64,000 nt of DNA from NCBI RefSeq assembly GCF_900143005.1, contig NZ_FRCS01000010.1:62001-126000 (forward strand), read 5' to 3'. Shown in pieces: positions 54,178-62,598 of this stretch. Every line of letters begins with the position of its first letter. Positions within the stretch are counted from its first letter, which is position 1. The translations under genes were made by a program, and so were the position numbers. The stretch comes from Cryptosporangium aurantiacum (GTDB lineage: Bacteria; Actinomycetota; Actinomycetes; Mycobacteriales; Cryptosporangiaceae). The notes below the pieces were generated by a model. The model saw only the letters and a list, made by a program, of their open reading frames with translations. It did no database searches and had not been told where the DNA came from.

Positions 54178-55029
54178 ATGCGGCTGATCGCGGGCCGATA
54201 TGAATTGCATCGAGAGCTGGGCGCCGGGGGAATGGGGGCCGTCTGGCTCGGGACGGATCAAGTGCTGCGGAGATCCGTGGCGATCAAGGAAGTCCGGCTG
54301 GCGCCACTGGACGCCGTCGGCACGACGAGGCTCACGGCGGCGGCCTTCCAGGAGGCGCGGGCCGCGGCGGCGCTCAGCCACACGCACATCGTTCCGGTGT
54401 ACGACGTGGTGGAGCACCGCAGCCGGCCGTGGATAGTGATGCTGGCGATCGAGGGGCCGACGCTCCAGCAGCAGGTGCAGGAGAGCGGTCCGCTGCCGGT
54501 CGACACCGTCGCGCGGATCGGGCGGAGTCTCGCGTCCGCGCTGGACGCCGCCCACGAGCAGGGCATCGTCCACCGGGACGTGAAGCCGGCGAACGTGCTG
54601 CTCGCCGCCCACGACCACCCGTGGCTCACGGATTTTGGCATCGCGCAGTCGCTCGCCGTCGCGTCGTCGTCCTCGTGCCGGGCCGCCAAGGGGAGCCCCG
54701 GCTACGCGGCGCCGGAGCAGGTGCGCGGCGAGCCGCCCGGCCCCGCCGTGGACGTGTTCGGGCTCGGCGCGACGCTGTATTACGCGGTGGAGGGTGACCA
54801 CGCGTTCCACGGCGAGGACGGCTGGGCGACGCTGATGGCGCCCGAGTACGGGACGCCGCGCAAGCCGGAGCGGGCGGCGTGGCTGGAGCCGATCCTGCTG
54901 CGGATGATGGCGCGGCGCCCGGCCGAGCGGCCGACGCTGACCGCGGTGCAGGAGGCGCTCCGGGTGCGGCGGCTCGCTCCGCGCCGCCGCCCGGGCCGCT
55001 GCTGCTTCACCCGCCTGCGCCGCCGCTGA
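54178..55029 (+). CDS. Soluble Ser/Thr protein kinase
   Basis: This 283-residue protein is essentially a bare Hanks-type kinase domain. The glycine loop is LGAGGMGAVW, Lys37 lies in VAIKEV, the catalytic loop is HRDVKPANVLL (Asp134), the metal motif is TDFGIA (152-154), and the P+1/APE region is GSPGYAAPEQV. Unlike many actinobacterial kinases it has no linker, membrane helix or sensor domain; after the kinase core come only about 20 basic residues. The activation loop (AVASSSSCRAAKG) has several Ser for autophosphorylation. GGTGGGGG precedes the ATG. The 190-base gap upstream (53988-54177) is comparatively AT-rich and probably carries its promoter. Confidence 0.93.
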   Translation: MRLIAGRYELHRELGAGGMGAVWLGTDQVLRRSVAIKEVRLAPLDAVGTTRLTAAAFQEARAAAALSHTHIVPVYDVVEHRSRPWIVMLAIEGPTLQQQVQESGPLPVDTVARIGRSLASALDAAHEQGIVHRDVKPANVLLAAHDHPWLTDFGIAQSLAVASSSSCRAAKGSPGYAAPEQVRGEPPGPAVDVFGLGATLYYAVEGDHAFHGEDGWATLMAPEYGTPRKPERAAWLEPILLRMMARRPAERPTLTAVQEALRVRRLAPRRRPGRCCFTRLRRR

Positions 55030-55846: not shown

Positions 55847-55958
55847 CGGCTGCCCCTCTCTTTCCGCCCTACTGCCGCTTACCCCGCAGATGGTCCAGAC
55901 ATGTTTGGCACCCGGAACGGGTAGCGAACGCTCATCCCCTTTGAAGTGAGAGGACGCG

Positions 55959-57458
55959 ATGGCCCTGCTACATCCCACGCTCCCCGGTGACGTCGACCGC
56001 GCGGTCGTCAACGACCACGCCGCCGTGCTGCGCTTGCTCGAGCACCTCGAGACGGGGTCCGGCGATCGCCGGACCCTCGCCGATCAGGTGGTCCACCGAT
56101 TCTCGGTGCTGTCCGCGGGGATGGAACAGGTCGTGCTCCCCGCGGTCGCCAAATTCGAGGGGGACGCCGGGCGGCGGCCGGTCTCTGCGATCGTCGACGA
56201 GGCGGTGAGCGGCCAGCACGCTGCGAAGGAGCGGCTGGCCGTGCTGGAGGCTGCGGAGCCGGGCGAGCCGGAGTTCGCGCAGGCGCTGCTCCGGCTGATC
56301 GAGGGCACCCGCGTGCACTTCACCCAGGTGGCCGATGAGCTGCTGCCGGTACTTCGCCGGTCCGGCGCCGACCTGCATGCGCTCGGCGCGGACTACCTGG
56401 CGGCGCGGCGCCGTTCGTCCGGCCACGTGCACCCCGACGCGCCGGTGTCCCCGGCCGCGTCCCGGATCGTCCATGCGGTGACGTCGGTGATCGACGGGCT
56501 CCGCGACCGGTCGTCCGGGCGTACCGATCGCCTGACCACCGACGCGTCCGGGCTGCTCGACCACGACGCCCAGCGGGTGATCGACGCGTTCGCGCAGCTG
56601 GAGCCGGACCCGCTGGACTCGCTCGACGTGGCCGACGCACGGCAGCGCGGATCGATCGGAGCCGTGCTCTCGGCACCGGAGCCGGCGCCGGTGGGGAAGC
56701 GGACGATCGACGGCGTGCCGGTGGTGCTGTTCCGGCCGGCCGGCGCGGAGGAGACGCTGCCGGTCGTCGTGTACGCGCACGGCGGGGGCGGCGTGCTCGG
56801 AGCCGCGGTCGACCTGACCGCGCAGGCGCTCTCCGATCAACTCGACAGCGTGGTCGTCAGCGTGGACTACCGGCTGGCGCCCGAGCACCCGTTCCCGGCC
56901 GGTCACGAGGACTACCGGGTGGTCCTGGAGTGGGTCCTGGCCAACGCCCGGGAACTCGGGGCGGATCCGGCGCTGGTAGTCGCGGCCGGAGAGTCGATGG
57001 GCGCGAACATCGCCGCGTCGGCCTGCCTGAGCCTGACCGGCGGGTCGCGCCCGGTGGCGCTGCTGATGATCGTGCCGGTGACGACGGCGGCGCAGGACAC
57101 ACCGTCCATGCTGGACTCCGCCGAAGCGGCGACGCTCGACCGGCCGTCGCTGGACTGGTTCCTGACGCACCTGTTCGGACAGCCGACCGATGCGACGGAT
57201 CCGCGGTTCGCACTGCTGGAGGCGCCGGCGGAAGCGCTCGCCACGCTACCGCCGACGCACGTCGTCACCGCTGACCGCGACCCGCTGCGGGACCAGGGTG
57301 AGCTGTTCGCGGCGCGGCTGTCCGAGGCAGGCGTGGCGACGACGCTCAACCGCTACTCCGGCGTGCCGCACAACTTCTTCGCGCTCGGCGCCGACCTCCA
57401 GGCGTCCGTGCAGGCCCAGCTCGACGCCGCCACCGCCCTGCGTCCGTACCTCGCCTAA
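55959..57458 (+). CDS. Hemerythrin-like domain fused to HSL-type alpha/beta hydrolase
   Basis: This 499-residue protein is an unusual fusion. Residues about 10-150 form a four-helix bundle like HHE/hemerythrin domains, with His20, His87 and His120 in place, but the expected HxxxE of helix 2 reads SxxxE (Ser52-Glu56), so iron binding may be lost. Residues about 240-499 are an alpha/beta hydrolase of the hormone-sensitive-lipase class: oxyanion motif HGGGG (274-278), nucleophile Ser346 in GESMG, Asp441 in ADRDPLRD and His471 in GVPHNFF. The likely activity is esterase or lipase. GAGAGGA precedes the ATG. Its 3' end overlaps the convergent sugar transferase gene by 4 bases. Confidence 0.87.
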   Translation: MALLHPTLPGDVDRAVVNDHAAVLRLLEHLETGSGDRRTLADQVVHRFSVLSAGMEQVVLPAVAKFEGDAGRRPVSAIVDEAVSGQHAAKERLAVLEAAEPGEPEFAQALLRLIEGTRVHFTQVADELLPVLRRSGADLHALGADYLAARRRSSGHVHPDAPVSPAASRIVHAVTSVIDGLRDRSSGRTDRLTTDASGLLDHDAQRVIDAFAQLEPDPLDSLDVADARQRGSIGAVLSAPEPAPVGKRTIDGVPVVLFRPAGAEETLPVVVYAHGGGGVLGAAVDLTAQALSDQLDSVVVSVDYRLAPEHPFPAGHEDYRVVLEWVLANARELGADPALVVAAGESMGANIAASACLSLTGGSRPVALLMIVPVTTAAQDTPSMLDSAEAATLDRPSLDWFLTHLFGQPTDATDPRFALLEAPAEALATLPPTHVVTADRDPLRDQGELFAARLSEAGVATTLNRYSGVPHNFFALGADLQASVQAQLDAATALRPYLA

Positions 57459-58957
57459 CGTCCTCCCGCCCGGAGGACCTCGATGAAGGTTCGGATGAAC
57501 ACCTTCACGTCGAGCCAGAGGGACCAGTTCTCGATGTAGTAGTTGTCGAACCGGGCACGGTCGGAGATCGGTGTGTCCCCGCGCAAGCCACTGACCTGCG
57601 CGAGCCCGGTGAGTCCCGCCGGTACGCGGTGGCGGTACGCGTACCGGCGGTGTTCCGCCGAGAACCGCTCCACGAAGAACGGACGCTCCGGGCGCGGCCC
57701 GACGATCGTCATGTCGCCGCGCAGGATGTTCCACAGCTGCGGCAGCTCGTCCATCGACGTCCGGCGCAGCACCCTGCCGACCGGCCCGACCCGGTTGTCG
57801 TGCGCGATCGACCAGTTGGTGGCCGACTCCGCCTCGTTCACCGGACGCATCGACCGGAACTTGTACAGGTCGAACGGCTGCCCGTCGCGCCCGATCCGCT
57901 GCTGCGTGAACAGGACGCCCGGCCCGCCCTCCAGCCGCACGGCTATCGCGATCACGGCCATCAGCGGGCTGAGCAGGATCAGGCCGACCGTCGCGACGAC
58001 GAGGTCGACCGCCCGCTTCGCCAGCCACATCGGACCGTCCAACCGAGGCTGCCGGATACGCATGATCGGGATCGCACCGATGTGGTCGGGCAGTCCGGTC
58101 TGGGTGTGGAACTCGCGCATCCGCGGCACGACCAGCAGGTCGCAGCGCGCCGCGCGCGGGCGGCGCACCAGCTCGACCAGGCGGGCGTCGTCCGGGGTGT
58201 CGGCGACCAGGAGCACGTCGGAGCCGGTGGCGCTGATGACGTTCTCGATCTCGTCGAGGCCACCGCGCCACGGCACGTCGATACCTCCCGCCGGCCCCGC
58301 GTCGCTGACGTGCGCGACGACCCGCAGGCCGTACTGGGGATAACGCCGCAGCAGGTCGGTGAGCTCCATCGCGGCTTCCCCCGAGCCCACCAGGACCGTT
58401 CCGTGTGCCACCAGCCGCGCCCGGCGTCCATAGAGGATCACCTGGCCGGTGAGAAAGCGACCGACGATGACCAGCGCCATCGCGGCCGCGGCAGCGCGGA
58501 GGAAGTTGCCGAGGATGACCGTGTCCTCGTGCCGGATCGAGGTGATCACGGCGACCACTGCGGCGGCGGTCAGCAGCCGGCCCAGCAGCAGCGGTAATTC
58601 GTCGAGGATGCTCAGGTGCAGCCGGGCGCGGTAGCGGCCACCGGTCGCGAACAGCGCCACGGTCAGCAGGGCCATCGAGAGGACGGCCTTGAGGTTGCCC
58701 AGCGTCCAGATGGCCGGGATCGACAGCATGACCAGGTCGACCGGCAGGACGATGTAGTACGCCTTCATGTGCGGCACCCACCTGCGCAGGCGCCGCTTGA
58801 TGAAACCGTCGTGCGGAGCTTTCGGTGCTGGCGGATCGGTCAGCGGCTGCGGCTTCCGTCCGGCCGGGCTGAGTGCGGCGCCGGGTTCGGCGTCCTGCAC
58901 CGGAGCAGCCGGATCGAGATCGACCACCGGGTGTTCACCAGTTACCTGCGACACCAT
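57455..58957 (-). CDS. Exopolysaccharide polyprenyl-phosphate sugar-phosphate transferase
   Basis: This 500-residue membrane enzyme starts exopolysaccharide synthesis by moving a sugar phosphate onto undecaprenyl phosphate. It has a Pro-rich cytoplasmic start, four membrane helices (about 60-165), a Rossmann-like CoA-binding-type domain (GTVLVGSGEAAMELTDLL, about 185-290), a fifth helix (LVVATVGLILLSPLMAVIAIA), and the C-terminal sugar-transferase domain: FTQQRIGRDGQPFDLYKFRSM, LRRTSMDELPQLWNILRGDMTIVGPRPERP and GLTGLAQVSGLRGDT. This is the WcaJ/WbaP layout. Start is ATG 58957 (AGGGG upstream); GTG 58963 or 58954 are alternatives. Confidence 0.93.
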   Translation of the reverse strand: MVSQVTGEHPVVDLDPAAPVQDAEPGAALSPAGRKPQPLTDPPAPKAPHDGFIKRRLRRWVPHMKAYYIVLPVDLVMLSIPAIWTLGNLKAVLSMALLTVALFATGGRYRARLHLSILDELPLLLGRLLTAAAVVAVITSIRHEDTVILGNFLRAAAAAMALVIVGRFLTGQVILYGRRARLVAHGTVLVGSGEAAMELTDLLRRYPQYGLRVVAHVSDAGPAGGIDVPWRGGLDEIENVISATGSDVLLVADTPDDARLVELVRRPRAARCDLLVVPRMREFHTQTGLPDHIGAIPIMRIRQPRLDGPMWLAKRAVDLVVATVGLILLSPLMAVIAIAVRLEGGPGVLFTQQRIGRDGQPFDLYKFRSMRPVNEAESATNWSIAHDNRVGPVGRVLRRTSMDELPQLWNILRGDMTIVGPRPERPFFVERFSAEHRRYAYRHRVPAGLTGLAQVSGLRGDTPISDRARFDNYYIENWSLWLDVKVFIRTFIEVLRAGGR

Positions 58958-59355
58958 TCCCACCCCTGGAAAACGGGCTGCGCGGCCCGTGGTCGGTTGA
59001 CGGCAGTTGGGCTGTCGGGATCACTCGCATCAAGGACGTAATGCTCCGGTCACATAAAGACGCGTAATGGCGGCGTCACATCATGATCGCTCCTTCCGCA
59101 TCCGCTGTCGCCCCCGAGCGGGAAAAGATCGCCATGTTTTACGAGCGATTAACCCCATTGCGGGGACGCTGACCTGGTCAAATTGCTGCTCTGCAGGTGG
59201 ACGGTCGGCTATCGGACTGATGGTGTGCCTGAATGGTTGACAACGATGGCCTGGTCGGTTGATTTTATTTCCGGCGTGTGACGGGACGTCGTTGGTGTGG
59301 CCCGGTGTCGTTCGCGCGACCGGATTATGGCGGAAATTCCGGTTGCCTCTCCGGG
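58958..59355. other. Intergenic region upstream of the sugar transferase gene
   Basis: These 398 bases lie between the end of a glycosyltransferase gene and the start of the sugar transferase, both on the minus strand. Composition is less GC-rich than coding DNA. I see no gene. A small CCCC-N5-GGGG hairpin is near 59154. The region probably carries a separate promoter for the sugar transferase, but I cannot assign -35/-10 boxes with confidence. Confidence 0.5.
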
Positions 59356-60585
59356 TTACTCTGGTCTTTCGTCGGTCGTGCGAGCACTGCGGTAGCCCTC
59401 GACAGCGCGTTCCGCAGCGCTCTCCCAGGACAATTCGCGCTTCATGAACTCGTATCCGGCGATCCCCATGCGCTCGGCGTCGGCGGGTGACTGGAGCAGT
59501 ACCAGAAGAGCCTCCGCGAATCCGTCCGGAGTGGGTTCTGCGAGCAATCCGGTCTCACCCGCGATGACGACGTCCCGCATCGAACCGACGTCGGTAGCGA
59601 CGACCGGCCGGGCGAACGTATACGCCATATGTACGACGCCGCTGATATTGACGATCTCGTAGGGAAGCGCGACGACCCGGGCTCCGGCGAACAGACCAGG
59701 CACATCCTCCATCGCGACATATCCCGGTTTCAACTGGACGCCGGGGATATCGGCGGCATGTTTCGTGACCGCATCCAGATCCATGTCGCCCATCACCGGA
59801 CCGGCGACCACGAGCTCCGCGCTCGGCAACTCCGCGCGGACTTTCGCGAACGCGTTGAGCAGCATCGGGATGTTCTTGTAGCGCGTCCAGGTGCCGAAGA
59901 AGACCACCCGTGGCGGAGCGGAGGCCGCACCGGGTGTCTCCGCGGCGTCCCCGGCGAACGCGGAGTACTCGCCGTGGCCGATCACCGCGGTGCGCCGCAC
60001 CTCGGGATAAGCCTTCACCAGGTCGTCGCGCGGGCCGGGGCCGAGTGTCAGGACCAGGTCGAACGACTTGTACGCCGCGCGGAGCGCCCGCATCGTCACC
60101 GGGTCGGACTTCTCGACCGAGTCGTGGTCGCCGCTGACGTCGTACGGCGTCGGGTTGTGGGCGACCTCGGCGATGACCGTGCCGGGCCGGCGCGCCTTCG
60201 CGAGCCGGACGGCGAAGAAGCTGTCGAGCGCGAACCGCATCTCGCCCAGCTGGACGACGTCCGGCCGGGCGCTGCGGACGTACCGCACCAGCTTCGTCCA
60301 CGAGTACGTCAGCCGCGCCGCCCGCCACACTCGGCGGACCTTGCGGAACCAGGTGGCCTCGCCGGTGTCCGCGCCGGGATGCCAGGTGGGGAAGTAGGAC
60401 CGGACGGTGAAGCCGGGCACCTGGGTCGACAACTCCGGCTCGGGGCCGGTCAGCAGCGTGACGCGGTGGCCCAGCCCGGCGAGCGCCTCGCCCAGCATGA
60501 AGTTGAATTGGAACATCCCGCCGCTGGGGAGGAACTCCACCAGGACGATCGTCAGCGGACCATCGGAGACGGTGCGATCAGTCAC
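59356..60585 (-). CDS. GT4 glycosyltransferase of the exopolysaccharide locus
   Basis: This 409-residue protein has the GT-B fold of family 4 glycosyltransferases, retaining enzymes that add sugars from NDP donors to a lipid-linked acceptor at the cytoplasmic face. The N-lobe shows FLPSGGMFQFNFMLGEALAGLGHRV. The C-lobe starts PPRVVFFGTWTRYKNIPMLLNAFA and holds the donor-binding stretch GARVVALPYEIVNISGVVHMAYTFARPVVATDVGSMRDVV. The usual E-x7-E is modified: the first Glu is in LPYEIVN and Ala replaces part of the second element. The GTG start overlaps the upstream stop (GTGA). Confidence 0.9.
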   Translation of the reverse strand: MTDRTVSDGPLTIVLVEFLPSGGMFQFNFMLGEALAGLGHRVTLLTGPEPELSTQVPGFTVRSYFPTWHPGADTGEATWFRKVRRVWRAARLTYSWTKLVRYVRSARPDVVQLGEMRFALDSFFAVRLAKARRPGTVIAEVAHNPTPYDVSGDHDSVEKSDPVTMRALRAAYKSFDLVLTLGPGPRDDLVKAYPEVRRTAVIGHGEYSAFAGDAAETPGAASAPPRVVFFGTWTRYKNIPMLLNAFAKVRAELPSAELVVAGPVMGDMDLDAVTKHAADIPGVQLKPGYVAMEDVPGLFAGARVVALPYEIVNISGVVHMAYTFARPVVATDVGSMRDVVIAGETGLLAEPTPDGFAEALLVLLQSPADAERMGIAGYEFMKRELSWESAAERAVEGYRSARTTDERPE

Positions 60586-61445
60586 GAAAACAGAACCCGT
60601 TCGTTCGTCGAGTCGGACTCGGTCGTGGATGGGTCCGTCGTCGTCGACGTCTTGTCACCCGCGCCGGCCTGAGCCGGAGCAGCGGCGGGGGCAGCCGGCG
60701 CGGGCGGCCCAGCCGGAGCGGGCGTGGGCGCGGGCGGGGCGGCCGGAGCCGTGGTGGCCGGAGCCGGGGTCGCCGGAGCCGGGGTCGCCGCGGCGGCGGG
60801 GCTCGGGTCCGCGGCCGAGAACGGCGGGCGCCGCAGCGGCCGGCGCGACCGGCGGCGGGGCTGCAGGACCTGGTACGCGGCCTGCTGGACGGCCAGTGCC
60901 ACCGCCAGGGCCGCGATCACCGTGCCGGCGATGACGATCCACGGTGCGGTGCCCGCCGAGTACGCGGTGTTCGCGGCCGGCCGCACCTGGGTCGCGGCGT
61001 ACGGCTTGATCATCGACTGCAGGTAGGTCGCGCTCAGCGCCGCGGTCCGGTCGGCCAGCTGTTCCGCGATCCGCGCGGTGCTCGCCTCGGCCTCGACGAG
61101 CAGCACCGACGTGGACGGCACGACGGTGACCGTCACGGTCGTGTCGGCGGCTTCGGCGGTCGAGAGCCCCAGCGCCTTCTCCGCCTCGGTCTCGAACCGG
61201 CCGCTCTGGGCCACCTCGGCCATCGTGGCGACGACCTGGCCGCGGCTGAGCGTCTCCAGGAAGCTGGCCTGGTCCTGGGCGGCCAGCGTGCTGGCAGGCA
61301 GGACGATCAGCGTGGTTTCCGCCTTGTAGCGGCCCTGCTGCGTCAGCGCGAAGACCACGCCGGCGGCCAACACGAGTAACGCCGCGACAGCCGCGATCAG
61401 CAGGCTGCGTCGCAACGGCTGGAAATCACTCACTGGACGTCCCAT
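60582..61445 (-). CDS. Wzz/YveK-like polysaccharide chain-length or co-polymerase protein
   Basis: This 287-residue protein has two membrane helices (about 15-35 and 168-187) bracketing an extracytoplasmic region with helical and beta parts (RYKAETTLIVLPAS, VTVTVVPSTSVLLVEAEASTARIAEQLADRTAALS), the plan of Wzz/YveK-type chain-length regulators and capsule kinase adaptors. A long cytoplasmic Ala/Pro tail (about 210-287) follows, where a tyrosine-kinase domain would be in full-length relatives; here there is none. It overlaps its neighbours at both ends (20 bases upstream, GTGA downstream). GTG 61433 is an alternative start. Confidence 0.85.
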   Translation of the reverse strand: MGRPVSDFQPLRRSLLIAAVAALLVLAAGVVFALTQQGRYKAETTLIVLPASTLAAQDQASFLETLSRGQVVATMAEVAQSGRFETEAEKALGLSTAEAADTTVTVTVVPSTSVLLVEAEASTARIAEQLADRTAALSATYLQSMIKPYAATQVRPAANTAYSAGTAPWIVIAGTVIAALAVALAVQQAAYQVLQPRRRSRRPLRRPPFSAADPSPAAAATPAPATPAPATTAPAAPPAPTPAPAGPPAPAAPAAAPAQAGAGDKTSTTTDPSTTESDSTNERVLFS

Positions 61446-62598
61446 CTTCGGTGCTCGGCTGCGTCCTGCGGCCCCGGCGTCGCGGCCCGGCGAGTACGGA
61501 CCGGTACGCGTCGGCGAGGCGGGCGCTCAGTATCGGCAGATCATGCCGCTCCTCGGCGCGTTTCCGTGCTGCTGCGCCGATCGTCTGACGCCGTTGCTTC
61601 GACGCGAGTACGTCCGCCAGAGCCTCGGTGAGGGCCGGTACGTCCCCGGGCTCGATCACCCGACCTTCGACACCGTCCCGGATCAGCGTCGGTACCGCGC
61701 CGATCGCGGTGGCCACGACCGGCAGGCCGCCGGCCATCGCCTCCAGGATGGCCATCGGCTGGCCCTCAAGATAGGACGGAAGCACAAACACGTCGCTCTG
61801 CCGCAGCCGCGCGCGGACCTGCTCGCCGTACTCCGGCCCGACACACGCGCCCGACAGCCCGGCGGCGTCGAGGGCGGCGGTGACCCGCCCGTACTCCTCG
61901 TCCGGCGTCGGGCCCTGGCCACCGACGATCACCAGGTCGAACGACACGCCCCGCGTGCGGAGCTCGGCGCAGGCCGCAGCCAGTTCCGGTACGCCCTTGC
62001 GGGCGCAGACGACCCCGACGAACAGCACGGTCGGGACGTCGGCGTCGAGCCCGGCGGGTTCGAAGCTACCGACGTCCACCGCGTTGTCGACGGTCTCGAC
62101 CGGCGTCTTCGGCAGGATCCCGGCGAACGTCCGAGTGCCGGCCTCGGAGACCGTGAGCACCAGCGCGCTGACCCCTACCGCGCGGAGGATCCGCCGGTCG
62201 CGGGCGCTGTAGTCGGCGACCTCGGGACGCCCGGCGTTACCGGTGGCCGAGTGGACGTGCGCGATCACACCGCGGGTACCCGCCCGCGCCGCCAGGCAGA
62301 GCGCCGCGGCCCGGATCGTGGGCAGGCCGGGGTCGGCCACCAGCTGGACGTGCATGATGTCGGCGCGGCGGGCGGCCCGGAACGTCTTCCAGGCGTCGCT
62401 GAGCGCGTGTGTGATGTTGGAGAACACCAGCTTGCCGCCCTGACGGGTGGCGGTCCGTGCGGTGTTCAGCAGCTCGACGTCGAACTCGGCGGCCAGCCGT
62501 GGGTCGCCGGTGATCGTCTCGGCGAACGTCGCGATGCCACCCCGCATCGGTGCGGCTTCGGCGACCACGACGACGCGTGGGCGAACAGGAACCGTCAC
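61426..62598 (-). CDS. GT4 glycosyltransferase of the exopolysaccharide locus
   Basis: This 390-residue GT-B enzyme has the N-lobe start RVVVVAEAAPMRGGIATFAETI with its acceptor-side GGI loop, and a C-lobe with PTVLFVGVVCARKGVPELAAACA and the canonical donor site VFVLPSYLEGQPMAILEAMAGGLPVVAT, a good E-x7-E motif. It probably adds one sugar to the growing exopolysaccharide repeat. The GTG start overlaps the upstream gene's stop by 4 bases (GTGA), so the glycosyltransferases are made as one coupled set. The C-terminus is basic (GPRRRGRRT) and could touch the membrane. Confidence 0.93.
   Translation of the reverse strand: MTVPVRPRVVVVAEAAPMRGGIATFAETITGDPRLAAEFDVELLNTARTATRQGGKLVFSNITHALSDAWKTFRAARRADIMHVQLVADPGLPTIRAAALCLAARAGTRGVIAHVHSATGNAGRPEVADYSARDRRILRAVGVSALVLTVSEAGTRTFAGILPKTPVETVDNAVDVGSFEPAGLDADVPTVLFVGVVCARKGVPELAAACAELRTRGVSFDLVIVGGQGPTPDEEYGRVTAALDAAGLSGACVGPEYGEQVRARLRQSDVFVLPSYLEGQPMAILEAMAGGLPVVATAIGAVPTLIRDGVEGRVIEPGDVPALTEALADVLASKQRRQTIGAAARKRAEERHDLPILSARLADAYRSVLAGPRRRGRRTQPSTEDGTSSE

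Follow-up and report, generated by a model that had tools for sequence, protein, structure and literature searches.

A predicted HSL-family esterase in Cryptosporangium fused to a hemerythrin-like bundle with an apparently lost di-iron site

Chimeric proteins that couple a hemerythrin to a chemotaxis, GGDEF or HD-GYP partner have been described (PMC4919030, PMC9388753). The iron site of Mka HLP, the Mycobacterium kansasii homologue of Rv2633c (PDB 6q09), consists of four His, two Glu and one Tyr (PMC8913304). Here we describe a protein in which a hemerythrin-like bundle is followed by a predicted HSL (family IV) esterase. The original prediction, read from the DNA letters alone, stated that no characterised enzyme was known to have this layout. 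We likewise found no paper on a hemerythrin-esterase architecture in the open-access literature, a scope that makes this weak evidence of absence. The layout is nevertheless not a lone oddity, as the protein belongs to what appears to be an iron-less branch of a small actinobacterial fusion family. Both domain kinds are well known, and the fusion family itself, of which we found no description, is apparently undescribed.

The window is the whole stretch of DNA that was analysed, 64,000 nucleotides from Cryptosporangium aurantiacum. The ORF at 55959-57458 on its + strand is real and encodes a product of 499 aa. Since both adjoining genes are on the - strand, the fusion gene is probably its own transcription unit. 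The upstream neighbour belongs to the endonuclease/exonuclease/phosphatase family and the downstream neighbour is a bacterial sugar transferase; the gene neighbourhood of the window copy gave no hint to the esterase substrate. Directly downstream and on the opposite strand to the fusion gene, a run of sugar-transferase/glycosyltransferase-like genes (57455-62598, - strand) apparently forms an exopolysaccharide cluster. Positions 54178-55029 on the + strand encode a short Ser/Thr protein kinase of 283 aa, made up of the kinase domain alone, with no sensor domain by Pfam. The features of the fusion gene are as follows.

55948..55954, + strand: probable ribosome-binding site GAGAGGA, read directly, 4 bases 5' of the ATG
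55959..57458, + strand: hemerythrin-like/HSL esterase fusion gene, 499 aa plus stop
55989..56360, + strand: hemerythrin-like four-helix bundle, residues 11-134 (helices 12-32, 37-64, 75-98 and 104-134)
56016..56018, + strand: His20, ligand column 1, kept (Phe in one congener); family alignment
56109..56123, + strand: Leu51...Met55 at the family helix-2 HxxxE ligands, both lost; family and stand-alone alignments
56214..56216, + strand: Gln86 at the family helix-3 His ligand, lost, with His87 one residue late; family alignment
56316..56330, + strand: His120...Val124 at the helix-4 HxxxE, His kept and Glu lost; family and stand-alone alignments
56361..56522, + strand: tail of the ancestral stand-alone hemerythrin, residues 135-188 (helix 139-154, HPDAP, ..LRDRSSGR); alignment with 13 stand-alone hemerythrins
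56523..56693, + strand: TDASGLLDHDAQ segment and N-terminal cap region of the HSL esterase, residues 189-245
56694..57455, + strand: alpha/beta hydrolase core of the HSL (family IV) esterase, residues 246-499
56778..56792, + strand: HGGGG oxyanion-hole motif, residues 274-278
56994..56996, + strand: catalytic Ser346 (GESMG); alignment and motif reading
57279..57281, + strand: catalytic Asp441; alignment and motif reading
57369..57371, + strand: catalytic His471; alignment and motif reading

Residues 270-474 of the window protein matched Pfam Abhydrolase_3 (PF07859) with an E-value of 9e-54 and 182.8 bits, against a cut-off of 25. In the family alignment HGGG and the catalytic Ser, Asp and His are intact in the window protein and its genus. 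The original prediction had read a complete HSL-class esterase from HGGGG, GESMG with Ser346, Asp441 and His471, and this reading is confirmed. By sequence, the relatives of the window protein in the PDB belong to the family IV/HSL esterases, led by Est8 (4ypv); assignment to the LipP1 equivalog (NF058653) was ruled out at 212.8 bits against a 350-bit cut-off. We infer that the window esterase is probably cytoplasmic and that its substrates are probably small esters. The full-length model had a pTM of 0.57, a low-confidence linker and no evident interdomain contact. A fold search with it returned only esterases among the best 50 matches listed, because the hydrolase dominates the model, and the bundle was therefore predicted alone.

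The AlphaFold model of the bundle, built from 33 family sequences, reached a pLDDT of 92.6 and a pTM of 0.85. Its best fold match was 6q09 by Foldseek (E 2.4e-3, TM 0.74), and the same structure came first by VIA (Z 16.3, rmsd 2.4, 141 residues aligned). The FBXL5 hemerythrin domain 3v5z was also among the fold matches. Since helical bundles without kinship can reach a Z of about 13, the rank of 6q09 and the sequence-profile match to it (E 2e-7) weigh more than Z alone. The model is that of a four-helix up-down bundle with hemerythrin topology. Pfam Hemerythrin (PF01814) aligned to residues 14-132 of the window protein with an E-value of 0.008 and 17.0 bits, below the curated cut-off of 25.3. 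The same model matched all ten family members scanned, and because intact relatives score above the cut-off, we reject a chance likeness of the N-terminus to hemerythrin. The HHE-type bundle proposed originally is thus borne out by the Pfam matches across the family and by a predicted structure that best resembles iron-bound 6q09. The NCBIfam model for the PA2171 "ribosome-binding persister" scored 49 bits against a cut-off of 190 and also matched an ordinary stand-alone hemerythrin, so the match reflects general homology only. Elsewhere in the host genome, nine further hemerythrin-family matches exceeded the Pfam cut-off (L086-L094, on contigs C2, C7, C8, C10, C11, C21 and C31). Given these matches, the genome is rich in probable di-iron hemerythrins.

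The register of the iron ligands was anchored on Pro61, Lys90 and 55 relatives outside the genus. As in these relatives, Pro61 lies ten residues past the helix-2 His column and Lys90 four residues past the helix-3 His column, free of gaps. A profile alignment matched the family ligand columns to those of 6q09. In the 66 aligned rows, which take in seven duplicates, the six columns held His in 63 (H1) and 61 (H2), Glu in 58 (E2), His in 58 (H3) and 63 (H4), and Glu in 60 (E4). Five of them could be scored in stand-alone hemerythrins, and the His and Glu at columns 20, 51, 55, 120 and 124 were kept in 13 of 13. The window protein has H20, L51, M55, Q86, H120 and V124 at these columns and so lacks the full H-HxxxE-H-HxxxE set of PF01814, with only His20 and His120 left. 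The family Tyr60 is lost as well. Across the four genus members the columns read H/F, L, M/L, Q/E, H and V/I, so that by alignment at least four of the six iron ligands are lost in all four genomes. As the three congeners share the losses, the iron site most likely disappeared before the genus diversified. The damage to the iron site was thus correctly predicted, but its extent was understated because the register in helices 2 and 3 was off by one residue. The proposed helix-2 "SxxxE" (Ser52/Glu56) sits one residue off the ligand pair Leu51/Met55, and the third of the supposedly remaining His, His87, sits one residue off the column occupied by Gln86.

Stand-alone actinobacterial hemerythrins align along their length to fusion residues 1-188, including the tail ..APTRPHPxAP..VDRLRDALSGR. 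Most of them stop at or just past ..RDALSGR, whereas the fusion, which has ..LRDRSSGR up to a joint near residue 188, runs on into ATDASGLLDPQAQ and then into the esterase. This whole-length alignment and continuation show the fusion to be a complete stand-alone hemerythrin followed, end to end, by an esterase. The common joint and the common fusion-specific residues favour a single fusion event, which we infer from a family tree that is midpoint-rooted only and in which the window genus forms a long branch.

We found ten full-length homologues among 100 relatives, three of them from the same genus. Each of the four genomes of the genus carries the fusion, with no stop in the matched frame. 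When named genomes were scanned with the N-terminal alignment, 60 loci were found. At 55 of these, one of which begins at a contig end, there is a single open frame of 507-544 aa with HGGG. The hosts are Micromonospora, Pseudonocardia, Spirilliplanes, Blastococcus, Modestobacter, Geodermatophilus, Kineococcus, Promicromonospora, Nocardioides, Streptomyces, Kocuria and several MAGs, including a Thermoleophilia. At L078, L081, L082, L084 and L085 the fusion N-terminus matched short open frames of 55-209 aa, which are possibly frameshifted, truncated or cut by a contig end. In 396 genomes sampled evenly across the phylum and searched at an E-value of 1e-30, the window's fusion was the only one; the remaining matches covered the hemerythrin part alone, nearly all in short frames. 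By these counts, the family is patchy in distribution. No plasmid copies covering 80% of the query were found.

No neighbour gene is common to most fusion loci. About a third of the fusion genes have an FdhA-like zinc dehydrogenase, which resembles glutathione-independent formaldehyde dehydrogenase, no more than 6 kb away and in some cases directly downstream (L028, L045, L049, L056, L058, L059, L065, L068, L083 and others). A functional claim from this neighbourhood was dropped, as no such gene lies near the window copy. In several Geodermatophilaceae (L035, L044, L045, L057, L063, L084), a major-royal-jelly/SMP-30-like gene starts directly 3' of the fusion gene.

Alterations of one half or the other were also found outside the genus. 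Iron ligands are lost in two Frankiales MAGs (L070, L074), which are nested with strong support among iron-intact sequences, and in the Thermoleophilia MAG (L079), and one Glu is lost in Micromonospora pattaloongensis (L075). They are also lost in Catenuloplanes (L067), a long branch that pairs with an intact Spirilliplanes sequence and has Phe at the catalytic Ser position. In fusion paralogues that form a Micromonospora clade (L034, L037, L040, L080; support 100/100), Gly takes the place of the catalytic Ser (GGEGVGA) and all iron ligands are intact. By alignment, this clade is the reverse of the window case, with its iron site intact and its nucleophile gone. Micromonospora sp. U21 has one copy of each kind (L027, and L080 with Ser to Gly).

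We next consider selection on the two halves, using simple NG86 estimates from few sequences. Within the genus, the bundle had a mean dN/dS of 0.36 and the hydrolase one of 0.27. The former value indicates that the bundle has been constrained after loss of the iron site, while comparison with the bundle in iron-intact clades (0.10-0.25) suggests some relaxation. Asp13, Arg25, His29 and Leu30 are identical in all four genus members and rare or absent in stand-alone hemerythrins; Gly35, Arg37, Arg38, Leu40, Asp42 and Gln43 are also identical in all four. In the genus, loss of the metal site thus appears separable from retention of this surface.

Our preferred reading, to which we assign a probability of about 0.62, is that the protein is a predicted HSL/family IV serine esterase whose N-terminal third is a former stand-alone hemerythrin that lost its di-iron site and was kept as a folded module. 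At the level of sequence, this reading draws on the end-to-end fusion, the intact triad, the ligand loss and the purifying selection on the bundle. The di-iron site of the ancestral fusion, a form that most relatives keep, was probably functional. In the window protein the bundle would no longer bind such a centre and would act as a metal-free module for folding, oligomerisation or docking. The fusion-specific helix 1-loop-helix 2 surface, which carries the residues listed above from Asp13 to Gln43, may serve to pack the bundle on the esterase or to dock the enzyme to a partner. If the bundle were instead an unused passenger in slow decay, the lost ligands, the dN/dS somewhat above that of the hydrolase, and the long insertion (L004) and 10-residue deletion (L003) between helices 2 and 3 in two congeners would all be in keeping. 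This is unlikely, however, considering that dN/dS is far below 1, that the helices are modelled well, that the fusion-specific residues are conserved and that four genomes lack a stop in the frame.

The original prediction left open whether the bundle senses oxygen or redox state or is only structural. The structural option fits the window protein better because four of the six ligands have been replaced, in three cases by hydrophobic residues (L51, M55, V124), and oxygen sensing by this protein is unlikely; in iron-intact relatives it is plausible. The window bundle could still bind metal in a rearranged site (His20 and His120 with His87, His46 and Glu56), sense redox state or oxygen and so control the esterase. 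Most of the genus keeps His20 and His120, and hemerythrin domains fused to GGDEF or HD-GYP are known redox/oxygen sensors (PMC9388753). Besides the changed columns, this arrangement has to contend with the missing Tyr60 and with replacement of His20 by Phe in one congener and of His87 by Asn in another, and we regard it as quite unlikely. It is highly improbable that the job of the protein is not catalysis and that its hydrolase is a binding module, as perhaps in the Micromonospora Ser to Gly clade. Its four loci lack the nucleophile yet keep the hydrolase domain open, but the window protein and its genus keep Ser, Asp, His and HGGG. As to the ancestor, we tentatively entertain the possibility of a di-iron-gated esterase, responding to O2, NO or peroxide at the hemerythrin site. 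Lineages would since have lost one half each, the window genus its iron site and the Micromonospora clade its catalytic serine, leaving a pseudo-domain as partner.

A family IV esterase is an apparently undescribed addition to the list of hemerythrin-fusion effectors. The natural variants without the iron site or without the catalytic serine make control of a hydrolase by a hemerythrin directly testable.

The window protein resembles Mka HLP in its four-helix bundle with a fifth helix, and 6q09 is the best match of the bundle by both sequence profile and fold. Mka HLP binds a di-iron centre; in the window protein, which continues into an esterase, four of the six His/Glu ligand columns are lost. 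With stand-alone actinobacterial hemerythrins (..APTRPHPxAP..RDALSGR) it shares homology over their whole length, C-terminal tail included, but these have no esterase and, at the five columns scored, intact iron ligands. Family IV/HSL esterases (Est8 4ypv, AacEst 9ju4, LipP1 NF058653) have HGGG, GxSxG, the Ser-Asp-His triad and the fold in common with the window protein, which carries about 190 additional N-terminal residues. Like the chimeric hemerythrin sensors DcrH-MCP, Bhr-DGC and Bhr-HD-GYP, it joins a hemerythrin-like domain to an effector. Those oxygen/redox sensors have other effectors and complete iron ligands (PMC9388753), whereas the window protein has an esterase and has lost most of its ligands, and most of its fusion relatives keep the HHE-type set.
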